From Rhyzopertha dominica (lineage: Eukaryota; Arthropoda; Insecta; Coleoptera; Bostrichidae), in NCBI GenBank assembly GCA_025024175.1, contig QCXZ01000064.1:434001-498000 (forward strand): a stretch of 64,000 bases of DNA, given 5' to 3'. The notes under the pieces are model-generated. The model did no database searches. It saw nothing but the letters and a program-made list of their open reading frames with translations, and was not told the origin of the DNA. Each line of letters starts with the position of its first letter. The stretch's first letter is position 1. The translations under genes and the position numbers were made by a program. Below are positions 10,001 to 53,438 of this stretch, one piece after another.

Positions 10001-13000
10001 GTCTTGTAGTAACTCAATAAAATACCGAATTAAGTTATATTCATAAACGGCCGTTTGGTTTGGATGTTTTTCTTCAAGAAAGAACGAGGAAGTATGAACC
10101 TCTGAAACGCCCACACACATAGCTAAAGAGTGTATATACAGGGTGATTTTTTGAAAACTTCACACCTTAAATAACTTTAAATAGAGGAAAAATTTAAAAT
10201 TTTGCAAAAACAGGTAAACTTTTGTTTGCAAGGGGACAACTTTTGAGATAAGTTTTTAATGGATAGCGGGGTAGATACCCCTTCAAAAATTTTAAATAAA
10301 CTACCCATCTTACGATACATCATTTAAAAGCTTATTACACAAGGAGTCTTGCTATGTAATTAGTTTTACTATTTTTTACCCATTGACGGGGTAGTGGGTC
10401 AAAAAGTGCATTGTAGCAAGTGGCTTATAAAATGGAATATTTTGGACTTTTTTTAACAAAATTTATTGTTTAACTTGTTAAAAAATAATTGTTACACCTA
10501 AGCAAAATGTCAAAAATACTTAAAATTTTCTTTCGACATTACTTGATATTGCAACTCGACAGTTTATACTGAATTGGCTAAATAATTATCTACTTTGTGT
10601 TTCCAATTTTTTGTTCCAACTTTTTGGCTACTTCTTTGGCACGACCATCTTTTTGTTCACATTCCTTTTTATAAATCGCGTGAAATTTTAAAGTGAGAGT
10701 CCAAGTGGTAATGGTTTATTCAACTGCCGAAAGGGTAGAAATAATTTATATTTACGGTGCTGAGCATAGCTGTGCTCGTGCGTCAGCAAGGGTGTTTAAC
10801 GAACGGCACCCCGATAAAAATGTTGACGCTAGGTACATTCTCGATCTCGTGCAGAAATTTCAAGACACTGGATCTGTAGTAAACAAAAAAAGGGCAGGGA
10901 ATAGAGTCGTTGATGAAATGGCCCAACTTGAAGTACTAGGTCATTTTGCAATGGATCCAACTAGCTCTTTGCGTAACATTTCTACAGCCACTGGACTTTC
11001 TTATTCATCTGTAAGGAAAGTTACAAAACTGCACAAATTCCATCCCTATAAGATGAAAACTCTCCAGGAACTCGGCGAAGATGACTTCGATAGAAGACTG
11101 CAATTTTGCGAAATTATGACAGAAAAGATTATAGTAAATCCAAATCTAATAAAAAATATCTGCTTCAGTGATGAATGCACATTTTTTTTGAAAGGCTCTG
11201 TAAATAAACATAACGTCGGGTACTGGAGTGACGAAGATCCTTATATTTTTCGAGAAGGTCATACACAAGTTTCTCAGAAGCTGAACGTCTGGGCTGGAAT
11301 ACTTGGCAACGCAATTGTAGGTCCAATTTTCATTGATGGGAGGCTAAATGGGGGAATGTATTTAGAATTACTTGATAACGTTATTGATCCTATAATCACA
11401 GAGCAATTAGAAAACCAACGTGAGCCTGAAGGAAATCCAATGTTGGATGAATACGAATTGTTTTACCAACATGATGGAGCCCCACCGCATTACGAAATTA
11501 ATGTGCGAAATTGGTTAAATCATAGATTTCCTCGTCACTGGATTGGTAGGCGTGGAACAATTGAATGCCCGCCATGATCACCCGATTTGACTGCTTTAGA
11601 TTTCTTTCTATGGGGTCATTTAAAATCTGTGGTTTACAAAACACAACCTACTAGCCTGGACGATCTACGAGAAAGAATTATTAACGAGTGCAGGAGGATT
11701 CCACCTGAAACTTTCCGAAAAGTGCAGCAGGAGTTTGAGAACCGTCTGTATTATTGTATGAAAACAGGTGGTGCACATTTTGAGAATCTATTGTAAGGTT
11801 TGAATTTCTATGGTTTTGTTCACACTGTTTTTGGAGTAATTTTTCTTTTTCGTGGACATGGACTTTCTAAAAAATTACATGATAAATACTTTAATGTTAA
11901 AAGAAAATTTTCAGTATTCTGGGAGTTTTTTAAGTGTCATATTTTTTACAAGTTGTTTGTTTAAATTTTGGGCTCTCGTAAGGACAAATTTTATTTCCGC
12001 TCTAAAATAAAATACATTTTGTTGAAAAGAGTCCAAAATATTCAATTTAATAAGCAACCTGTTTCGTAGGCACTATTAATCTATTACCCCGTCAATAAGT
12101 TAAACGTGGTAAAACTAATTAAATGGCCAGACTCTTTGGGAAATAAGCTTTCAAATGATGTATCACAAGATGGATAGTTCCATTTAAAATTTTTAAAGGG
12201 GTGTCTACCCTGCTCAAAGAGTAAGCGCTATCCATTAAAAACTTATCTCAAAAGTTGTCCCCTTGCAAACAAAAGTTTACCTGTTTTTGCAAATTTTTAA
12301 ATTTTTGCTATATTTAAAGTTATTTAAGGTGTGAAGTTTCCAAAAAATCACCCTGTATATAAGAAATATATGACAAAAACATATGATTGCAAAATTGTGA
12401 AGTAGTGAAACTTTTTTGATCAGTTTGATCTCCGCAACAGTTTAAAAAGCGCACCAACTTATAAAGAACTGTCGACAACAATAGACATTAACTCACCTTT
12501 ATTAGCAACCTCTTCCAAAGTTGCTCGAAGCAGCCAATTTGTAATACGTTCTTCTTTCTTCTCTTCAGTTATATCAACAACTCTAGCGGAAGCTTGCTGA
12601 CACGCCAACCTTAGGAAGTACGAACGTAAAAAATTGTCACCTTCAAATTTCTTGTGCACCTCTTTAAGTGTTTCTGATGCAGGAAAATTAGGAAACTGTT
12701 CTCTATCCCCACTAATTTTTATCCCCTGCAGGCGATGGTAGCAACATGGCATTACAACCAACGCTTTAACAAATTCCAGCTGCAGAAATAGCCTCAATAC
12801 TGTGATACTTAAATCAGCACAAGCGTGTAGCCCAACCAGCACACATTCATCTATTGCGTGGAAGTGTTTTTCTAAAAGAATGCGTATTTCTTCCGCCGAT
12901 TTATCGGTAACAAAGAATTCTTCAAACTTAACATAAGGTTTACTATCGGGATGTAATTTATCTTGTCTAGAGATCGCTAATTTAAACTTGTCTTTGTCAC

Positions 13001-20933: not shown

Positions 20934-23900
20934 CTAGTTCTTCAGTGGATCCAAGCTTTCCAACGAAAAATCATCATTCCCAAAGCTGATCCCACGGCTG
21001 AATCCGGTCTGCAACAAATTGATTATTTCTTACTTACCAAACTTCCGAAGCCAAAATTTACTTACCTTCATCTCTTCAATTCTTTTATCTAACAATCCAA
21101 TGGCATTTTCGATATCTTGGGGAGTAGCCGCCGAGCTGAAGTCTCCCATTTCAAACGGATCTAATATTTTGGCGCTGGTTATACTGCGCAACAAAAAAAA
21201 AGCAATCTGTCACTACAAATGCCACAAACATAGTTTACTTCTTATTATTTACCTGTTTGGTGATGGTGTTAAAGCGGGCTGCGGGCTGAAGGGTGTCGAA
21301 CCGAAAAGGTCCTGCTCGAAACCACTTTCATTAATGCTATTACTGTTGATGTTAGTACGACGAGCTGCTTTTGGAGGTGGTGCTACTAAAAAACAGATAA
21401 ATCAATTAATTAAAGTTCTGCATCAATCAGGTGCAAAGCATTGAACGGAGTGCCTCAGGGCCCACTCCTGTTTCTTTCTTTTACATTAGTATTAGTATTA
21501 AAAATTGTCTTGGGATAATTAAGAATTGTACCGTTATTGACCGTTCATCTTCGATATTAATTAAATATATTGGGTTTCGGTTTTCTAAATAAAACTCCTT
21601 TTATCTATGCCAAGCTTTCGGAGATCATTTGTCTCCTTCTTCTGGGCCTGTAATATTTTATTAAATAACTACAAATAGTAAGTGATATTCATAATCTTTC
21701 TAAAATTTACACCTATCTTCTCCATTTTAAATCATTTTCGTCATCATAATTTCCTACTTGCACTCTCCAAATTTCTCGTCCTATCTAGATTTCATATTAT
21801 TGGTTGTCAGTTTTTTAATTTTGAAAGATATATTAATATTTGTCAAGATTTTTTGTGATTATTAATAGTTAGCAAAATTTAAAATTACCTATAAGTTTAG
21901 AGTTATTTATATGAAGTTAAGACTGCTGTTCAACTTAGACTAATTCCGTTTCTGTTGTAAGTATTTTCATGTGATTTGTTGTACTCTATTTGGAGTTATT
22001 TAATAAAATATTACAGGCCCAGAAGAAGGAGACAAATGATCTCCGAAAGCTTGGCATAGATAAAAGGGGTTTTATTTAGAAGACCGAAACCCAATATATT
22101 TAATTAACATCTTGGGATAATGTTTAAAACCACTAGCACTAAGTTATGATAGTACTTACGTAGTGGTGGGTTTGCCACGTTTCCATTCATCAAAGTCTGT
22201 GTGGAACTGTTCTCAAATGACCTGGGATCGAAGTCGTTATCTTGCTCGAACTCATTGAGCAATAATCCTTCGAGTTTTGTTCCCACTGCTGGAGCATTTT
22301 CGAACTGCCTGGGAGGCACTGGAGGTGCTGCGGCATAAAAAACTTTTTGATGTATTAATCAGGAAACTCAATTCATTGTTAGTATGACCCATTTTGTACC
22401 ATGGAAACTTATAACCAGCCAAAGATATCTAGTTTTTTTTGAGAAATGGAATAGAAGATATGTTTTAAATGAGCTATTTTTAATTGTAAATGTAAGGATG
22501 TATGTACTTGTGCACCAAAGAGCTACTTTTAACAGGTTGATAGCTCCTGATATGGGAAAGTGCGAATTATGAAAATATCACAAAATCTACTTTCTGTTTT
22601 ATTTCTTAATTAATTAAAATAATTCTCAACTCACCGTTTCCATTAGTATTGCCATTATTAGAACTCAAATCAACAAGCTTTCTCGAATTTCCATTTACTT
22701 GCTCCGTAGTCGACAAATCACTGCTAAAGCTTATGGAATTGGCAGCAGGAATCTCCAAAATGTTGCTGATTTCATTCTTCCTCAAATATGTATCTAACTC
22801 TGGCTTAATTCCTATAAACTGTGACAGCTCCAACAGTCGCTGCTTGTAAATACCATTCTCTTGCTCGAGGCGCTTGATCTTCTGTTGAGTAACCATTGCT
22901 CTGCGCTGCGTTTCCAAATCCTTCCCAGAAGTCTCCAAGAACCTCCTATATGCAAGTTCGAACGCCTGTCCGATCGTAAGGGTGATCTCTTCGGCTAACT
23001 TGTCCGATATGAATACAAAGCATTCGTGCTTGTCTTCCTGTTCATTGTCGACTGGAAAGGAACGGAGTTAAAGGTGTTCTGATTGATTTTATCGATTCCT
23101 ACCTTGATTGGGTTGCTTGGCGATGAAGGAAAAGAATTTCTTCTCCCCCTTGTCATCGGCACAGTAAGATATCCGGTGAAGCGGGAACTGGTGAAGTATG
23201 ACGTGCGTTCGTGGTTCCTGTATGGCTACTCCATCTGCGCTTATCGTTAATTCAACTTTACGTGTTTTGGCACCTGATTCGCTCTTACGCAGCTGCTGCG
23301 AGAATTTTAGTTTGCGGATACCCTCTTTTACTACTTCGATTCCTGAAGTTGGGAAAAAATTATCTTTAATTAAAAGATCCATTATAATCAACTTCAAAGA
23401 CATATTATTATGTAAACAGTCATGACACTTACCTTCACAAAGTATGGTAAGATTTTTTTAATCAATTCAATAACAAAAAAAGACAGTAAACGATATTTTG
23501 TTTTAATTGAATAGAAAACTACTGACTATGGATAGTTAATGGCAGATTTTGGAACAAAAACACTATTATTAATACCTCATCCAGATTATACACACAAACA
23601 GAGGCATCTTTACAGGTAAAAGATAACTAACCAAACCCAATTCTTATTTTTTTAAATCTCAGTATCTAGCAGCCTAGAGAAAACTTTTCATCCATAAATT
23701 ACTGTTTAAAAAATAATAGCTTTCCACGTTTGTGGAAGTTATAGAAGGAAAATTGAATTAGTACTTCACAACTATAACATCCTGTATTTCAAACATTTAG
23801 ATGTTTATTACATGTATTTAAAAGTTTGTTTGTATTGTATAAAATTATCCACTGTAGTTTATTTATAATATTAACTTTCTATTTTTATTTGACTTTCATT

Positions 23901-35100: not shown

Positions 35101-35323
35101 GTGTATATACCAAAGTGATTGGCAAAAATAATCTTCACTTAGTAATTGTTTCAGTTATACTAAAACAGCGTGGGGGATTAGCAATTGGTTTGCTTAATCA
35201 AAATAATATAGGTACAAGTTTTGAAGTTCTTTTAAGTTGAATATTCTTTCGAAAGGCTTGAAATAAGCACTGATAGTGATGAGCCAAAGTTACAGTTTAC
35301 ATCGCGATATCTAATAAAGTAAA
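32163..35323. other. Intergenic, no gene seen
   Basis: AT-rich and without a recognised coding frame. Bases about 32757-32805 resemble 55045-55090 (shared TTAGCA, AAATTTTGC and AACAAGG), so a dispersed repeat passes through here. Confidence 0.45.
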
Positions 35324-35601
35324 TGATAAAAGTAAGAATTTAGGATGGCAATGCCATCTGTCAGCATTACACTGACATGATGACAAAGCCACCTAGCTGC
35401 CTTAACGGGTTCTTGCCCGTTAGCATAAAGTGCCGTGGGGGCCTGCTGTCAAATTGAAGTGTGCAGTTGCATGCCAATTTGTCAGGCTACAGGTCACTTC
35501 CTTTAGGAAGTAGTACCCGTTAAGGCAGCTAGGTGGCTTTGTCATCATGTCAGTGTAATGCTGACAGATGGCATTGCCATCCTAAATTCTTACTTTCATC
35601 A
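35324..35601. repeat. Near-perfect 87-bp inverted repeat, 104-nt structured loop
   Basis: Arms 35324-35410 and 35515-35601 are inverted repeats with a single mismatch visible near the outer end. The 104-nt loop contains smaller hairpins: AACGGG with CCCGTT (partly shared with the arm edge), CAAATTG with CAATTTG, and CTTCC with GGAAG. As RNA it would be a long, almost perfect hairpin. As DNA it could be a palindromic MITE or the end of a larger element. It is followed 14 bp later by TATATAAG and then by a hammerhead ribozyme fold. Confidence 0.9.
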
Positions 35602-35615
35602 TACCATTGCTTTGG

Positions 35616-35623
35616 TATATAAG
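35616..35623 (+). promoter_or_regulatory. TATA-like box before the ribozyme
   Basis: TATATAAG on the plus strand, 18 bp before the outer strand of the hammerhead helix. A transcription start about 30 bp downstream would fall in the first helix strand. Suggestive only: TATA-like strings are common in AT-rich DNA. Confidence 0.3.
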
Positions 35624-35633
35624 GAAAATCAGT

Positions 35634-35739
35634 TCTATGCCGTGTTGTCTACACTAGACCTAAACTGCACTGATGAGCTGTAATGACAGCGAAATAGTAC
35701 TATCTGCAGTTGGTTGAGGTGTAGACAGCACAGCATAGA
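35634..35739 (+). ncRNA. Type I hammerhead ribozyme
   Basis: All conserved core parts are present in order on the plus strand. CTGATGA is at 35670-35676. Stem II is GCTGT/ACAGC (35677-35681 with 35686-35690) with an AATG loop, and GAAA follows at 35691-35694. Stem III is ATA/TAT around GTAC (35694-35703), and the cleavage triplet ATC is at 35702-35704, so cleavage is predicted after 35704. Stem I opens with AACTGCA (35663-35669) pairing with TGCAGTT (35705-35711). Across an 8-by-7 internal loop it continues as a 21-bp helix of 35634-35654 with 35719-35739, with one mismatch and one G-T pair. Stem III is minimal and self-complementary, as in hammerheads known to work as dimers. Family knowledge: type I hammerheads occur in Penelope-like elements, retrozymes and animal satellites. 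Confidence 0.85.
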
Positions 35740-38700
35740 CATGCATTTTAATGTAAATGATAGTTACAATGGTATGCACCAGCGAAATATCTAAATTAGT
35801 ATGTAAGGTCCACACAAGCGAATGCTATAAGGCTCTACATTTTGTGATTTATAAATATTGGCGTAACAAGCAGTACTTTTGTTTAATTAAAATGAAGAGA
35901 AAAATTAAAATAATAGTACGACATTGTGCTTTAACTTGGCAGTGCTGTTTGGTCTAGTTTCATAAACTGTAGATTTTCAACGAAAATTGACATTTTAAGC
36001 TAGTAGAGAGGAGAAAACGAAAATTTTTACGAGCAGGGTTCGAATTCGTAAATAAAAATTTCAGACATGCGTTTTTATGGTTCCACCCTAGTAGATAGGT
36101 GCACATATTTGCTTTACCTGCTATTTGAGGAACTGATATTTAATACATAGTTTGTAGTAACAGTACTGTATAGTGTATACCAACTACTCAAATCATTTCA
36201 TTGTCATGATTGCAAAACGCTTCCAGCACAATACTGCAATTCACAACAGTCGTTATCGACTTTAATATTGAATATGATGACATAATCATTGCTAGCAATA
36301 TTTATTATGGCTAGGTCTACCGGACCGGAGGCAGCGCGAAACATTCCACGGAAATCCGCTAATTAGCAAATTGTTACGCAATGAAACAATAAATGTACGC
36401 TTAGTGGTAATGGAAGGGAAAACAATGAAACGGTGTTTCCTAGACTATAGCTCATTTAGCAAATGTTTCAACAGCAACGAAATAGTTAACAGCCGTAAAC
36501 GCCAAATGCAAGTGAGCGTATAAAAGTAATAATGCAATGGGTCAGGGTCGGACCCACAGTCGTGTAAGTATAATGTTGCTGCATTCTCTTCTTAGGTGGT
36601 ACCCAGTATTTGAGCGATAGCAGCGTTGGTATTATGGTAAAATACGCCTACAGTTCATCGGGTAATAGCAATACTTCTCATGAACCTTCAATTAAAAAAC
36701 TATGCAGCAGCTGTAATAAGTTCATGTAGAAAAGAAAAGCAAATCCAAGACATTATTGGTACAGGGGTAAGTTTTAGAGATAGTGGTGTACCAAGTGTGG
36801 AAAACCCTAATTCTTTCCCTGCCTGAGCATTATCCTAACGTCATGAGACGTAGGACTTTGGAGCAAACAGATACCTAGAATGGAAGGGTTGTATTCAGGT
36901 AGTTTTCCCTTACTTAAGCTAGCACATACAATGAGTTACTTGTATCTAATAGTTTTTAGACTTTTAAATACTAAATCGTGATGTGTAGATTAAAATTACG
37001 GGATATATCTCAGAAGATAGGGGTAGAAATCTCCCTAAACTTCGAGTAACTGTTAAAGACATTTGAAAAAATATAACCATTCCATTGTATCATGAAAAAT
37101 AAACGGGAAACAGAGTTAAATCAACCCTTAAAGGACCTTTCTGCTGCTCTGGTGGCTGGTTCAGTCAGTCAGGTTTAAAAAACGAAGTCAGTGCAAATAT
37201 AATATATATTTTCATATTTTTGCTTTCATCTAGCCCCATGGTGATCCTATTTGGAAATTAACGTTTTTAAAGGCAAATTTTTATCTAGCCCCAGCACAGG
37301 GCTACTTAAAAATAACGAAAAATTATTTTTGTGGACTAGTGAGACCATTTTTTTTCCTATTTCCGCAAGAACTTCCTCAGATGCCAAAGTTTTCTGTTCT
37401 TCTGCTGAAGAAGAAAGTTTTAAAAGATCTTTATCGAGTAGTCCTGTTTTATGGTGAATAAAGAATTATGTTTTTGAAAAATTAAACTACACTTTAGAAG
37501 ACCAAAAAGCAAAAAATCAGTTTCCAAATACTTATGTGTGCAACCGTAATTGAATTAAAAATATTTCATGAACGAATAGATAATACACTGTTGTAAATGT
37601 ATTACATAACAAAATGTGGCAAGTAGACTGTGTGCATGCTGATTTCATTGCTACTTCAATTAACACGAACAGACTAGAGATTCGGCTCTGCTTTAAAACG
37701 AGCTTTAATAGGACAAAAGAAAGGAAAAGCCGACAAAGAAGAAATCTACATGCGGTTGAAGTACAACAGCGTGTAATTTTTGAGTAATAATACGCAGCAC
37801 TTTCTAGTGCTGATTTAATCTAACTGCGCAAGACAAATTCGAGTTTTTACATTTTTATTAACGAGATAAACACGACAAAATCAGCTGGGGCTGTTATTAT
37901 AGCTTAGGTGCAATAACACCTACAAGGAGCGAAAATGTCATTGAGAGAGCATGAGACGGCGTGTGGCCAGTCGTACCACGCATCAACTGGTACAAAACGT
38001 GTGTAAAATATATTACCCGGAATTGATAGACAAAAACCAAGCCACGGGCAGACACAGAAAGTGCCCACAAGATAGATATACCATTAACAACCTTGAGAAT
38101 CAATGACGACCGCGTTGGTTAACAACAAAAAGCATTTTATAACGCAAAAAATGTTAACTTTTAATCAGTAAACACCAGGAACGCACTAGAAAGACATAGG
38201 ATGGCGTTTAAAAATTTTGAAATTTGCTATCCTTTCTAGAACGGCGTGCGACTAGAAAGTTGCAAGCCTTTTCCTTTTATGCGACAGCACAGTTAAACGC
38301 AAACAATTAAGTGAAAACCAAAAGTATTAACAGTAAATCTAGCCCACAGGAAGTCACCTGCGTTCTTCTTTAGGTGTGTGTCGCCAATCCAAAAGACATC
38401 GACTCCTTTGCTTTTGTAAGCGCCGCCAAAAATGTAGGTACTTACTCTTATTATTCTCGATGGTCGTTGTGGATGATGCGGTGAGCAGTTGTTTTAAAGA
38501 ATTAACAGTGCGAAACACGAAGCGAACTAAATTACCGGAGCAAAATTAGCAGCCGCCTGCCACGGGCAAGGCGCAAAAACCAACTAAAAACACCCACCTC
38601 TACGGCAACAGGTTTCCAAAGGTGCTGCCGCCCGCGGTCACAAAGACAACATGGACACCTGTTGCTGTGGGATCTAGGTAGGGGAATTACAGCATCAGGA

Positions 38701-47100: not shown

Positions 47101-48990
47101 CTTGTTAAAAAATAATTGTTACACCTAAGCAAAATGCCAAAAATACTTAAAATTTTCTTTCGACATTACTTGATATTGCAACTCGACAGTTTATACTGAA
47201 TTGGCTAAATAATTATCTACTTTGTGTTTCCAATTTTTTGTTTCAACTTTTTGGCTACTTCTTTGGCACGACCATCCTTTTTATAAATCGCGTGAAATTT
47301 TAAAGTGAGAGTCCAAGTGATAATGGTTTATTCAACTGCCGAAAGGGTAGAAATAATTTTTATTTACGGTGCTGAGCATAGCTGTGCTCGTGCGTCAGCA
47401 AGGGTGTTTAACGAACGGCACCCCGATAAAAATGTTGACGCTAGGTACATTCTCGATCTCGTGCAGAAATTTCAAGACACTGTATCTGTAGTAAACAAAA
47501 AAAGGGCAGGGAATAGAGTCGTTGATGAAATGGCCCAACTTGAAGTACTTGGTCATTTTGCAAGGGATCCAACTAGCTCTTTGCGTAACATTTCTACAGC
47601 CACTGGACTTTCTTATTCATCTGTAAGGAAAGTTACAAAACTGCACAAATTCCATCCCCATAAGATGAAAACTCTCCAGGAACTCGGCGAAGATGACTTC
47701 GATAGAAGACTGCAATTTTGCGAAATTATGACAGAAAAGATTATAGTAAATCCAAATCTAATAAAAAATATCTGCTTTAGTGATGAATGCACATTTTTTT
47801 TGAACGGCTCTGTAAATAAACATAACGTCAGGTACTGGAGTGACGAAAATCCTTATATTTTTCGAGAAGGTCATACACAAGTTCCTCAGAAGCTGAACGT
47901 CTGGGCTGGAATACTTGGCAATGCAATTGTAGGTCCAATTTTCATTGATGGGACGCTAAATGGGGGAATGTATTTAGAATTACTTGATAACGTTATTGAT
48001 CCTTTAATCACAGAGCAATTAGAAAACCAACGTGACCCTGAAGGAAATCCAATGTTGGATGAATTCGAATTGTTTTATCAACATGATGGAGCCCCACCGC
48101 ATTACGCCATTAATGTGCGAAATTGGTTAAATCATAGATTTCCTCTTCACTGGATTGGTAGGCGTGGAACAATTGAATGGCCGCCACGATCACTCGATTT
48201 GACTGCTTTAGATTTCTTTCTATGGGGTCATTTAAAATCTGTGGTTTACAAAACACAACCTACTAGCCTGGACGATCTGCGAGAAAGAATTATTAACGAG
48301 TGCAGGAGGATTCCACCTGAAACTTTCCGAAAAGTGCAGCAGGAGTTCGAGAACCGTCTGTATTATTGTATGGAAAGAGGTGGTGCACATTTTGAGAATC
48401 TGTTGTAATGTTTGAATTTCTATGGTTTTGTTCACACTGTTTTTGGAGTTACAAATAAATAATTTTTCTTTTTCGTGGACATGGACTTTCTAAAAAATTA
48501 CACGATAAATACTTTAATGTTAATAATAATGTTAAAAGAAAATTTTCAGTATTCTGGGAGTTTTTTTAAGTGTCATATTTTTTACAAGTTCTTTGTTTAA
48601 ATTTTGGGTTCTCGTAAGGACAAATTTTATTTCCGCTCTGAAATAAAATACATTTTGTTGAAAAGAGTCCAAAATAATCAATTTAATAAGCAACCTGTTT
48701 CGTAGGCACTATTAATCTATTACCCCGTCAATAAGTTAAACGTGGTAAAACTAATTGCATGGCCAGACTCTTTGTGAAATAAGCTTTTAAATGATGTATC
48801 GTAAGATGGGTAGTTCCATTTAAAATTTTTAAAGGGGTGTCTACCCCGCTAAGAGGGTAAGCGCTATCCATTAAAAACTTATCTCAAAAGTTGTCCCCCT
48901 GCAAACAAAAGTTTACCTGTTTTTGCAAATTTTTAAATTTTTGCTATATTTAAAGTTATTTAAGGTGTGAAGTTTTCAAAAATCAACCTG
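47101..48990 (+). mobile_element. Mariner-type DD41D element, copy 2, lacks left TIR
   Basis: Closely similar to 10474-12355 from its first base to its right end, which reads AATCAACCTG followed by TA. Homology starts at CTTGTTAAAAAATAATTG (47101), so the copy has lost essentially the whole left inverted repeat and nothing more. Small differences include a 15-bp deletion near 47274 and a short insertion after the gene. Without a left end it should not be able to move by cut-and-paste. Confidence 0.88.
47323..48408 (+). CDS. DD41D mariner transposase, intact reading frame
   Basis: Transposase of the IS630-Tc1-mariner superfamily, 361 aa from the ATG at 47323 (an in-frame GTG 18 bp upstream is not used here). 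The N-terminal third is a DUF4817-type helix-turn-helix region: MVYSTAERVE, ARVFNERHP, then a second DNA-binding helix set ending in HKFHPHKMK. The catalytic Asps are D154 (FSDEC), D255 (QHDGAPPH) and D297 (TALDFFLWG). There are 41 residues between the last two, the DD41D spacing reported for the rosa-type mariner lineage. The frame has no stop. One change next to the third block, SLD where copy 1 has SPD, might affect activity. The element around it lacks its left end, so the gene is stranded. Confidence 0.88.
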   Translation: MVYSTAERVEIIFIYGAEHSCARASARVFNERHPDKNVDARYILDLVQKFQDTVSVVNKKRAGNRVVDEMAQLEVLGHFARDPTSSLRNISTATGLSYSSVRKVTKLHKFHPHKMKTLQELGEDDFDRRLQFCEIMTEKIIVNPNLIKNICFSDECTFFLNGSVNKHNVRYWSDENPYIFREGHTQVPQKLNVWAGILGNAIVGPIFIDGTLNGGMYLELLDNVIDPLITEQLENQRDPEGNPMLDEFELFYQHDGAPPHYAINVRNWLNHRFPLHWIGRRGTIEWPPRSLDLTALDFFLWGHLKSVVYKTQPTSLDDLRERIINECRRIPPETFRKVQQEFENRLYYCMERGGAHFENLL

Positions 48991-50821
48991 TATAATACAT
49001 GAAAATTTGATTTGAGTAAAATTAGAGGTATGGGTCAAAATTGTTAGAGATAAAACGACCATCAGTTTAATGCTGATTGGTGGAGTTTGGCCAGCTGACG
49101 CATAATGCTGGGGCTTATAACTTGTATTTTGAAGTTCAACTAAGATTAGCTAAACCAGCAGCTTAAATCATTACAGTCTTAGGTACTGTTTCACAACCAG
49201 GTTGTTTCCTCATTCTCAGTTTTGATATTTTTTTTATCTATACTGCTAGCTACCTATTCACTCCTAACTTAAATTTCTGAAGCTTCTAATGCGAAAAGTT
49301 GAAACCAAAAAGCGCATTGGTTAATTAATTATTTGATATGTGCAAATTCCAAATCGTAAAACGTGGTTCTTTTAGTAGATGCTTAACTGAATGCGCTAAA
49401 TATCGCCCAACTGAGATCAACAATAATTGGGTTAGGAATAAACGAGCTTTTGAGAACAGTATATAAAAAAAAACATAAAAAACTTAGGCCTTCACAGAAG
49501 ATCTTTTAAGTCGCCTTGCAGAAAATTAACGAAGATTGTTCATGAAATAAATACTTCGTTAATTACTTAGGTACACAATCCGATAAAGGCACATTTTACT
49601 TATGTTGAATTATTCAGTAAGAGAAATTTCTGCTTTGCCCCCCTTAGACCAAAAGCTGGGTACGCCCATGTCTACGATTGTTTTATCAAGAATGTTGCAG
49701 TTCCTAATGGGTACTCTAAAGAAACAGTTGAAAATTTACTTATGAATATACAGTACAAAAAGGTTGTAGATGCAACCACATTGTCTTTGCAAACCAAAAA
49801 TTCCTTTGGAATTTCGTTTAAAACTGGCTTTTACTGACTATATAATACTATCAAAAATCTTTTAGATACTCCACTTACTTACTTAATGCAGAAAAAATCA
49901 ACAACTTTGTTTGAAATTAACGCAACCACGAAAACGCTATGTTAACACGCCCACGAGATCGAACAAAGGATAATTAGTAGAACGTAACAGTTTCTCACTT
50001 CTAGCTCGATTCACGGATCATCCCATCCTCTAAATTCCGCAGTGAAAGTTTTCAAGATCACGCGATAAAGTTTTCGACTTAAACACGCGTAATGTTCATC
50101 AAACAAATCACATGGGTCACGAAATGCTTAGAAAGTGAACGCTTATTGTATTCCTAGAGCGTCTGCTGGTCATTATAATCGATGCAAGAGTGAAAATGAA
50201 CATGCTGACATGTCTCTACGTCCAAAAGTCCTTTTCAAACGCTGCTTTCTTGTTATGGTAAAAGCGACGGGGAAAATCGCGTGCGACTAGGGCGCGGAAA
50301 ATTGCAGTGCATTTTAAAATTGCAACATTTCGCGACGTCGCCTGCTTACATTATGTTCCTGGTGATTGACAGACGCGTTTGTTACGCAACAATGCTGGTA
50401 TTACGCGCAATTAGAAAGGGGACTGTCGATATGCTCGGCAGTTAGAAGCAATCAGGTTAAATATGGGTGGAAAAGCAGGAAACAAGCTTTTGAAATTCAT
50501 ACAACTGGAGAACGAGTTCAGTTTGAGAATTTCTGTGCTTGATAATAAAAAAAAACGCATCCATATGCGAGAGAAATAATGGATTTTATTTTTGAAATGT
50601 TTCGAATCCACCCATAACTACTGTACCTTTGTGTTGTTCGAAAAACATTGCAGGTTNCAAACCCAACTATGTTCCCCCCAAAATCCATAAAACAGGTAAA
50701 TCGGTGGGACCTATTGCTTGAAGTATTAACTCACCCACTTATCTACTGTCAAAATGGTTGACCAACAAGTTTATTAGCTTATCTAGACCTCCAGTAGATT
50801 TTTCGATTAAGAATTCTATGG
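48991..50821. other. Intergenic, nothing recognised
   Basis: No domain-bearing frame found on either strand. One N lies near 50657. Confidence 0.45.
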
Positions 50822-52330: not shown

Positions 52331-52657
52331 ATCGCTGGGAATGCTGATTGTATTTGCTTTGTACATGCTAGCTTCCGTTCTTTATATTAAAACATCTGGT
52401 TACTCTTTGGAAAGAGCGGGAACGGACTTCTGTCATATGAGACAAAAAGACAGAATTCTCACGCCTACACATAGATTAGGTATGACTGCTATGATTGCCA
52501 AAGTGTATTACTGTATGTATTATCTGATGCTTGTATACTTATTTATAACGATGTGACGTGTCTCATGTCCTTTTGCAGGAGTTATAGACAAATAAACAAC
52601 ATAAAATCTTTTAGGAGATCCAAAGGATAAAGTAGATGAAAAAGAAAAGCTAGTAGA

Positions 52658-52797
52658 AGTTGTAATCTTAAATATATTGGGCAGACCAGGCGTTCCATAG
52701 GAGTTAGATTTAAAGAACATTTAGCTCATTTCAGTTTTCGGAGGTTTGACAGGTCAAGTGTCGCCCAATATATTAAGGACACATCTCACCCTAAAAT
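52658..52797 (+). pseudogene. Penelope-like GIY-YIG endonuclease fragment
   Basis: One open frame encodes KYIGQTRRSIGVRFKEH, then LAHF and SSVAQYIKDTSH. KYIG is the YIG half of the catalytic core; the Arg after it, the Glu-His pair and the S-x-A-x-H/Y-I-x-x-T-x-H tail follow the pattern of the endonuclease domain at the C-terminus of Penelope-like retroelements. The reverse transcriptase is not present upstream: the neighbouring sequence belongs to a LINE relic. It is a second, independent Penelope-like remnant besides 5384-5708. Confidence 0.6.
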
Positions 52798-53438
52798 TCA
52801 AGTTCCCACTATTTTAGTAGTTATTTTAACAACAGATACAACAGAAAACAATGCACAGACAAACAAAAGACGACCTGAACGTGAGTTGTTTGCCATGTTC
52901 AACCCGAAAATTTCGGATAGGCTCCAATCACCGGCCATTGTTCTTCCTCAACAATCGGAGTGCCATTTTTGCAGACCTTGAATTTCCACTAATTGCAAAC
53001 AATGCACTGTGGTTATTTGGAACGTGGGTGTTTCTTGGTGCAATCCTCCACGTTTCACTATTATTATATTGGTACTTGTTTGTCTTATTCTCTTATAATA
53101 AGGTGTCACCGTCCCACTTTCGCGTTTGCTGCTTTATCTCAGTCAATAAATTCAGCCAGGCCATCGAACGGGTCAGTTAATTTGTTCGAAGAAAATTCCA
53201 AATAAGCGGCTACTGATGGAAACGTACTAGCAAAATAACGGTGGTCTTGTTTGCGGCAATTTCACTTTGCATAACGCAATAATGATCTCGATAGGTCTTT
53301 GATGCATTTGATTTTACCACTTTGAAAATGATATAAGTTTGTATATAAGAATTGTAATAAACATAATATAATCAGCTATTTGTTGCCTGCATGGATTAAT
53401 ATCAGATAAAATGTGAGATTACCCATACTGGGTGTATA

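Follow-up and report, generated by a model that had tools for sequence, protein, structure and literature searches.

The hammerhead and the insertion that carries it

The window, by which we mean the whole 64,000-nucleotide stretch of Rhyzopertha dominica DNA that was analyzed, holds a hammerhead ribozyme between two minus-strand genes; with respect to coding exons, its position is intergenic. One neighbor is a PTB-domain gene with its first coding exon near 24.6 kb (presumably ced-6/GULP, by its motifs); the other is an SH3BP5 gene with exons at 40.2 to 43.1 kb, of which the one at 40.2 kb was presumptively assigned by motif. An association of the ribozyme with an intron or gene was considered and set aside because the coding exons of both neighbors lie apart from it. 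The organism-labeled matches closest to the presequence-protease gene at 15.5 to 19.2 kb were beetle proteins (best, 63 to 64% identity), and other matches reached 75%. The window also contains two copies (10474–12359 and 47101–48994) of a DNA transposon that has inverted ends and carries a frame of the DUF4817 transposase type; they share 95% identity along 1.9 kb. A 126-nt inverted repeat (97%) is present as well, and its halves, at 21553–21678 and 21986–22111, are 307 nt apart.

The hammerhead occupies 35634–35739 on the plus strand and is of type I. All of the parts that an earlier note on this DNA had named were found where it placed them, and the core was canonical when read base by base and when every pair was rechecked by script. 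Its parts are as follows.

35634–35669, plus strand: stem I, 5′ strand, with a UA bulge at 35661–35662 (pairs checked by script)
35670–35676, plus strand: catalytic core CTGATGA (sequence and 60-copy alignment)
35677–35690, plus strand: stem II, 5 bp (35677–35681 with 35686–35690), with loop AATG; pair 35680–35687 shows compensatory change
35691–35693, plus strand: core GAA (sequence and 60-copy alignment)
35694–35703, plus strand: stem III, ATA/TAT around GTAC, 3 bp (35694–35696 with 35701–35703); a 10-nt palindrome that would form a 10-bp stem in a dimer
35704, plus strand: C17 (u297 on the unit scale given below), with cleavage predicted 3′ of this base
35705–35739, plus strand: stem I, 3′ strand (pairs checked by script)

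Stem I consists of 7 bp, the 2-nt UA bulge, 4 bp, a 1 × 2 internal loop, 14 bp, a C·A mismatch, and 7 bp; the script counted 32 pairs in four blocks (15 A-T, 14 G-C, and 3 G-T). The earlier note had given it as 7 bp, an internal loop, and 21 bp; the long helix is there, and it is longer than described. The features of a type I hammerhead are present, namely, an H at position 17, three helices meeting at the core, and an open-ended stem I; with respect to the contact between the loops of stems I and II, the UA bulge is visible at the sequence level 7 bp up stem I.

We estimated how often such a motif arises by chance by simulating 6,960 Mb under a first-order Markov model, requiring the core, a stem II of at least 4 bp, and a stem III of at least 3 bp. 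The simulation yielded 347 such sites, 2 of which also had an inner stem I of at least 7 bp, giving a rough expectation of ~3.7 × 10−5 per 64-kb window on both strands, a value resting on those 2 events. The distal arms of stem I alone fold at −37.6 kcal/mol, a value reached by 0 of 20,000 random pairs, and this helix is independent, additional evidence for the hammerhead. The motif is thus real and far beyond chance, in line with the very small probability that the earlier note had put on a core combined with a long stem I.

The covariance-model search that the earlier note proposed gave a hammerhead model as the top match by E value (Hammerhead_HH9, RF02275; E = 0.0081 for 64 kb and 7 × 10−5 for 551 bases); its score was 28 bits, below the model's gathering score of 52, and nothing in the window reached an Rfam gathering score. 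HH9 is, we presume, an amniote hammerhead. It resembles the beetle ribozyme in its core, its short stem III, its inner stem I bulged on the 5′ side, and its distal helix; the two differ in that the beetle hammerhead misses the HH9 gathering score and belongs to a mobile, multicopy element. Elsewhere, a pattern search of viral contigs gave 5 exact matches to CTGATGAGCTGN6CAGCGAAA (L001 to L005), and at none of them did Rfam reach a gathering score.

The hammerhead lies inside a single 424-bp insertion (35329–35752) flanked by a 10-bp duplication. We mapped the insertion on a circular scale in which u1 is 35408, the ribozyme is u227–332, and the cut is at u297/298. Its features are the following.

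35319–35328, no strand: target-site duplication, left copy GTAAATGATA, an exact 10-bp direct repeat
35329–35413, minus strand: left arm, part of a unit in inverted orientation, running from its outer end at start site B (u188) to an inner end near u105
35408–35752, plus strand: right arm, a near-complete unit (u1–u345, mapping as +u1>348); outer end at start site A, with a 6-nt overlap with the left arm
35592–35595, plus strand: start site B (u185–188), read through within the right arm; 45 of 111 arms end outward at B
35740–35752, plus strand: 5′ half of the start-site-A hairpin and end of the insertion; copies that continue past it read GACATGCAT-TTTA-ATGTATGTY, and 60 of 111 arms end at A
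35753–35762, no strand: target-site duplication, right copy GTAAATGATA, an exact 10-bp direct repeat

The interval 35323–35413 aligns to the circular unit as −u195>105 at 98%, its first 6 bases belonging also to the target-site duplication, and BLAST of the surroundings against 30 loci showed that 35408–35755 is one unit. The family unit is 351 to 352 bp, with one type I hammerhead each, and occurs both in tandem, head to tail, and scattered; its G+C content is 43.8%, and its longest stop-free stretch is 67 amino acids. Only weak A-box-like strings turned up when Pol III boxes were looked for. The window copy carries one ribozyme, so that on its own it could cut, as predicted, but not release a unit. 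Judged by its sequence, the interval is the hammerhead of a nonautonomous metazoan non-LTR retrozyme insertion with a unit of ~352 nt. The earlier note saw no recognized retroelement around the motif and supposed that its host element might be undescribed. The undescribed host was borne out; the picture of a solitary motif in gene-poor DNA was not, as the ribozyme sits within the retrozyme insertion and the adjoining 91-nt inverted repeat is the second arm. The neighboring inverted repeat at 35323–35602 had been read as a MITE until BLAST of the 30 loci placed it in the retrozyme unit. An outer palindrome (CATACCATTG/CAATGGTATG, 35600–35609/35768–35777) was likewise discarded, given that 255 of 2,000 randomized sequences were as good and that its right half lies outside the insertion.

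Insertion ends and ribozymes across the genome

A search of the assembly (479 Mb in 138 contigs, the window being positions 434001–498000 of contig C64) for further copies, as the earlier note had suggested, was productive. With the ribozyme as the query there were 118 first-look candidates, 40 copies of which were scored, and with the rest of the unit there were 487, again with 40 scored; the loci taken were the best-scoring ones, rather than a random sample. Seventy loci resolved into 65 distinct insertions after 5 duplicates were dropped, as was a single far fragment in each of L031 and L062, and the loci were mapped on the circular scale.

Two arms were present in 46 of the 65 insertions, and in all 46 they lay head to head with their 3′ ends outward. 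Across the 111 arms, outer 3′ ends fell at site A, near u344, in 60 cases (40 at u343–345), at site B, near u188, in 45 cases (40 at u185–192), and elsewhere in 6; the two sites are ~156 nt apart, with the ribozyme between them. The two-armed insertions combined A with B in 41 cases, A with A or B with B in none, and had one end elsewhere in 5. If sites were chosen independently and at a 1:1 ratio, all 41 pairs would be mixed with a P value of 9 × 10−13. A+B pairs occurred in both samples (22 of 40 insertions drawn with the ribozyme and 19 of 25 drawn with the other half), and because the mapping was done on the whole circle, the ends were not created by the limits of the queries. One-armed insertions ended at A in 17 cases, at B in 1, and at another position in 1. 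Site A is located at the 3′ edge of a 4-nt hairpin loop in the circular fold, and the copies running past it gave 68 hairpin strings, 47 of them of two types. Site B comes after CTAAATTCTTACTT, where the single fold made showed no hairpin comparable to that of site A.

Duplications of at least 9 nt (range, 9 to 17 nt) flanked 43 of the 65 insertions, compared with 15 of 1,284 swapped-flank controls; the 43 comprised 37 of the 46 insertions with two arms and 6 of the 19 with one, and 22 of the 65 had no such duplication. Target sites were AT rich (75% within 15 nt versus 67% further out). At the 46 arm junctions, the arms either overlapped or had no more than 10 nt of other sequence between them, and the overlap was 2 to 6 nt in 35. 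Inner ends fell at u177–220, just before the ribozyme hairpin, in 21 of 111 arms, a number that may reflect a pause of the reverse transcriptase and may be inflated by the choice of the first sample for ribozyme-holding copies.

We then compared the hammerheads, one per insertion. Complete ribozymes were present in 64 insertions, and the aligner was given 61 of these, the length variants L011, L014, and L033 being left out, and pair counts used 60 of the 61, omitting L060 for its inverted core. In L060 (1708–1825), the ribozyme arms are in their usual order, and the core has the opposite orientation, as though it had flipped between the palindromic halves of stem I. The core had changed in 10 of 720 cells versus 218 of 5,633 elsewhere, and alignment cells at paired positions could pair in 2,336 of 2,393 cases versus 21 to 44% in slid structures. 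Pair 35651–35722 was A-T in 46 copies, G-C in 11, and A-C in 3, and pair 35680–35687 was G-C in 52, A-T in 5, and A-C in 3. The hammerhead core is therefore conserved in the family, and two stem pairs covary; uncompensated variation at paired positions, which the earlier note had named as evidence against a ribozyme, was looked for, and these two pairs change with compensation. The motif CTGANGA was kept in 99 of the 105 complete ribozymes and was accompanied by the spaced GAAA in 92; 6 were without the former and 13 without the latter.

Folding did not bear out the idea that the long stem I simply stabilizes an active monomer. In the computed monomer ensemble, the probability of stem III was near 0, and a competing fold was better by 3.7 kcal/mol. 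The companion idea, that a self-complementary stem III permits dimers, fared well. The central bases of loop III were complementary in 60 of 60 aligned copies (T-A in 27 and A-T in 33), and every copy is thus able to pair there with a second copy. The best predicted dimer was an exact double hammerhead at −112.8 kcal/mol versus 2 × −52.1 kcal/mol, an energy that serves as a plausibility check only, since long self-complementary arms favor the dimer in any such calculation. Cutting would probably work best between two ribozymes.

The template and rival explanations

Arms ending at A or B were longer than one unit in 43 of 105 cases (longest, 1,357 nt; up to 3.9 turns), and 86 of the 105 ran through the ribozyme cut site. 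Passes over the unit were closer to each other within an insertion than to those of other insertions in 43 of 50 insertions (means of 3.8% versus 5.4%; Wilcoxon test, P value = 9 × 10−8) and were not closer in the remaining 7; the overall difference was 3.7% between turns of one arm and 3.2% between opposite arms. In four insertions (L051, L057, L058, and L063), the passes were near-identical, with 0 differences at 304 sites in L057 and 0.3% at 1,795 sites in L051, and they were 3 to 4% from other insertions. Furthermore, 8 of 10 closely inspected insertions shared internally one or more bases found in less than 10% of the others. Because passes are alike within an insertion, the turns and both arms appear to derive from one RNA or from near-identical units. 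Stops at the cut site were considered as a sign of a linear template and were uninformative, with 1 of 111 inner ends there against 2.2 expected, too weak a difference to argue from. At least two ribozymes were present in one arm in 18 of 64 insertions, which could yield a unit.

On this pattern, a circular RNA would be the best-fitting template of the turns and arms. We moderately favor a stronger version, in which a single RNA circle would be the obligate template of every insertion, paired Penelope-type reverse transcriptases would start at two fixed sites flanking the ribozyme hairpin, one for each target strand, and rolling reverse transcription would re-create the tandem arrays that yield new circles. 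In the main competitor, which we think unlikely, the template is a linear multimer transcribed from a tandem array already present, and the ribozyme only trims RNA and is dispensable for insertion. Tandem arrays do exist in the genome, the passage of 86 of 105 arms through an uncut site is what unprocessed RNA also predicts, and unprocessed RNA is the dominant substrate in vitro in Anolis (PMC11167929). The near-identical passes of the four insertions, set 3 to 4% apart from other insertions, speak against it, as do the 46 junctions, where the arms overlap or lie within 10 nt of each other and no array-flanking stretch of any length had been copied; a young homogeneous array would also fit both observations, and its linear transcript would likewise yield similar passes over several turns.

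Target-primed reverse transcription of the LINE type, with twin priming to produce the inverted copies, would account for the variable duplications, the fixed 3′ end, the 5′ truncation, and the head-to-head inversion, and reverse-transcriptase remnants are present in the window. In twin priming, however, the second arm begins at a variable internal point, whereas here, in 41 of the 46 insertions with two arms, it begins at a second site that is fixed; moreover, neither poly(A) nor a simple-repeat tail was found at the ends of the 40 loci inspected. The LINE-type reading was already disfavored, and we consider it improbable. Still less probable, to the point of being very doubtful, is a MITE (a short inverted-repeat DNA transposon) that carries the ribozyme by chance. 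The 91-nt inverted repeat (98%) beside the hairpin of the window copy invites that reading, but the arms are of unequal length with ends at different places in the unit, inner junctions are not constant among copies, duplication lengths range widely, and many arms are longer than one unit. The equal terminal inverted repeats and the duplication of constant length expected of a MITE were thus missing, and this reading is refuted for the loci examined. A solitary hammerhead, either arisen by chance or domesticated like the conserved intronic ones of amniotes, has HH9 as the best Rfam match in its favor, yet the copy number of at least 65 insertions, with 487 first-look candidates, refutes it. 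The ribozyme is also intergenic and on the strand opposite both neighboring genes, and the chance expectation is ~3.7 × 10−5 per window, so that we assign this explanation a vanishingly small probability.

A candidate enzyme and the place of the beetle retrozyme

The same genome contains candidates for the enzyme. GIY-YIG elements are abundant, with at least 144 matches when 150 of 2,080 candidates were scored, and neighboring pairs less than 5 kb apart were oriented −/+ in 19 cases and +/− in 0. In one member, a single frame contains a reverse transcriptase (37.6 bits) and, after it, GIY-YIG (33.2 bits), which is the Penelope order. In the Penelope-like family examined, all 9 head-to-head pairs with both ends in hand combined one short arm with one bearing a ~34-nt AC-rich tail, and their duplications were 10 to 15 bp. 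Since these 9 pairs follow a two-end rule and the retrozyme does likewise with its own sites, we infer that a Penelope-type enzyme would be the mover. The two ends of the Penelope-like family are ~34 nt apart versus 156 nt in the retrozyme, and no convincing sequence shared by the two was found (the best local match was 16 nt, and 38 of 1,000 shuffles were as good). Another family may therefore be the partner, and the enzyme class is better supported than the family.

Several other observations were made near such elements. In the window, a short frame at 52640–52981 on the plus strand contains a stretch resembling GIY-YIG (YIGQTRRSIGVRFKEHL), which scores 14.2 bits with Pfam, under the cutoff; the frame is probably a Penelope-like remnant. 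At GIY-YIG loci L076 to L103, a hammerhead-like motif reads TCGACAAA in place of CTGANGA in all 24 occurrences found. C3 and G8 are both changed and could still pair, making this a putative natural U3-A8 hammerhead, and it lies 75 to 77 nt upstream of the short end where measured (23 of 24). A retrozyme fragment (u201–352) lies near one Penelope-like pair (L095, 2605–2756), and a weak hammerhead match (21 bits) lies near another (L091, 2911–2980).

Taken together, we think it probable that the retrozyme, with its ~352-nt unit, is copied by target-primed reverse transcription of circular (or multimeric) RNA with Penelope-type machinery. An insertion with at least two ribozymes in one arm would be transcribed, and the hammerheads, probably dimerized through their palindromic stem III, would cut the transcript into unit-length RNA, which would be closed into a circle. 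A reverse transcriptase/endonuclease, presumably of the Penelope type, would then bind this RNA and cut an AT-rich target on both strands. DNA synthesis would be primed by each of the cut strands, starting at fixed site A for one and at fixed site B for the other, with the ribozyme hairpin between these sites, and the two copies would run for variable lengths around the RNA, sometimes for several turns. They would finally be joined head to head, mostly at 2 to 6 nt of microhomology, leaving a duplication of ~9 to 17 bp.

According to the parts of PMC7229834 covered here, metazoan non-LTR retrozymes (in coral, mussel, and axolotl, with insects listed) carry a type I hammerhead in tandem repeats of ~170 to 400 bp, have a low G+C content (below 45 to 50%) and no long reading frame, and coexist with Penelope-like elements, and circles were proposed there in 2020 as templates, with Penelope-like elements as strong candidates for mobilization. 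The beetle retrozyme resembles them in its type I hammerhead, its 351- to 352-bp tandem unit, its G+C content of 43.8%, and the Penelope-like elements in its genome; it differs in that its ends are defined here, with paired fixed start sites and head-to-head arms, which do not appear in those parts of PMC7229834. In Anolis, a Penelope-like protein cuts and extends both strands, starting at two internal RNA sites, and insertion in vitro does not need ribozyme cleavage (PMC11167929). The 30- to 40-nt tail on one inverted repeat of Penelope elements, as given in the excerpts of PMC3846280, is explained by two internal start sites (PMC11167929).

The retrozyme and the Penelope-like elements thus share head-to-head arms, short target duplications, and two internal start sites, and we liken the two further in that Penelope-like elements have both target strands extended and a hammerhead upstream of a start site. 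In contrast, the retrozyme encodes no protein, its start sites enclose the ribozyme at a spacing of ~156 nt, and its unit is read over repeated turns. Type I hammerheads are also repeat-borne in an Aedes aegypti repeat and in newt and cave-cricket satellites, and in Aedes aegypti the palindromic stem III and loop III give a 10-bp stem in the dimer (PMC3088659); the sections covered of PMC3088659, PMC2837043, and PMC6155905 do not describe insertions built from two start sites.

Retrozymes of metazoans, together with their circles and Penelope-like candidate partners, are already known (PMC7229834, in the parts covered). As far as the literature searched extends, the beetle member and the anatomy of its insertions are new, with paired fixed start sites and a template read round and round. 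No description of paired start sites in a retrozyme was found in the open-license literature, which takes in few subscription papers, and no title among the five open-license papers containing "hammerhead ribozyme" and "Coleoptera" concerned a beetle ribozyme.

The spread of animal retrozymes via circles has so far been a proposal, with no evidence from insertions in the parts covered of PMC7229834. The beetle insertions are a genomic record of the reaction: they supply start sites and an A+B rule, and the genome also contains an autonomous class that matches. The outcome of reconstituting the reaction from retrozyme RNA can thus be predicted base by base. They also indicate that retrozyme repeats can pass for inverted-repeat DNA transposons and be mislabeled as MITEs. 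If other retrozymes share these ends, the beetle element would be a member of its kind displaying a mechanism unseen before.
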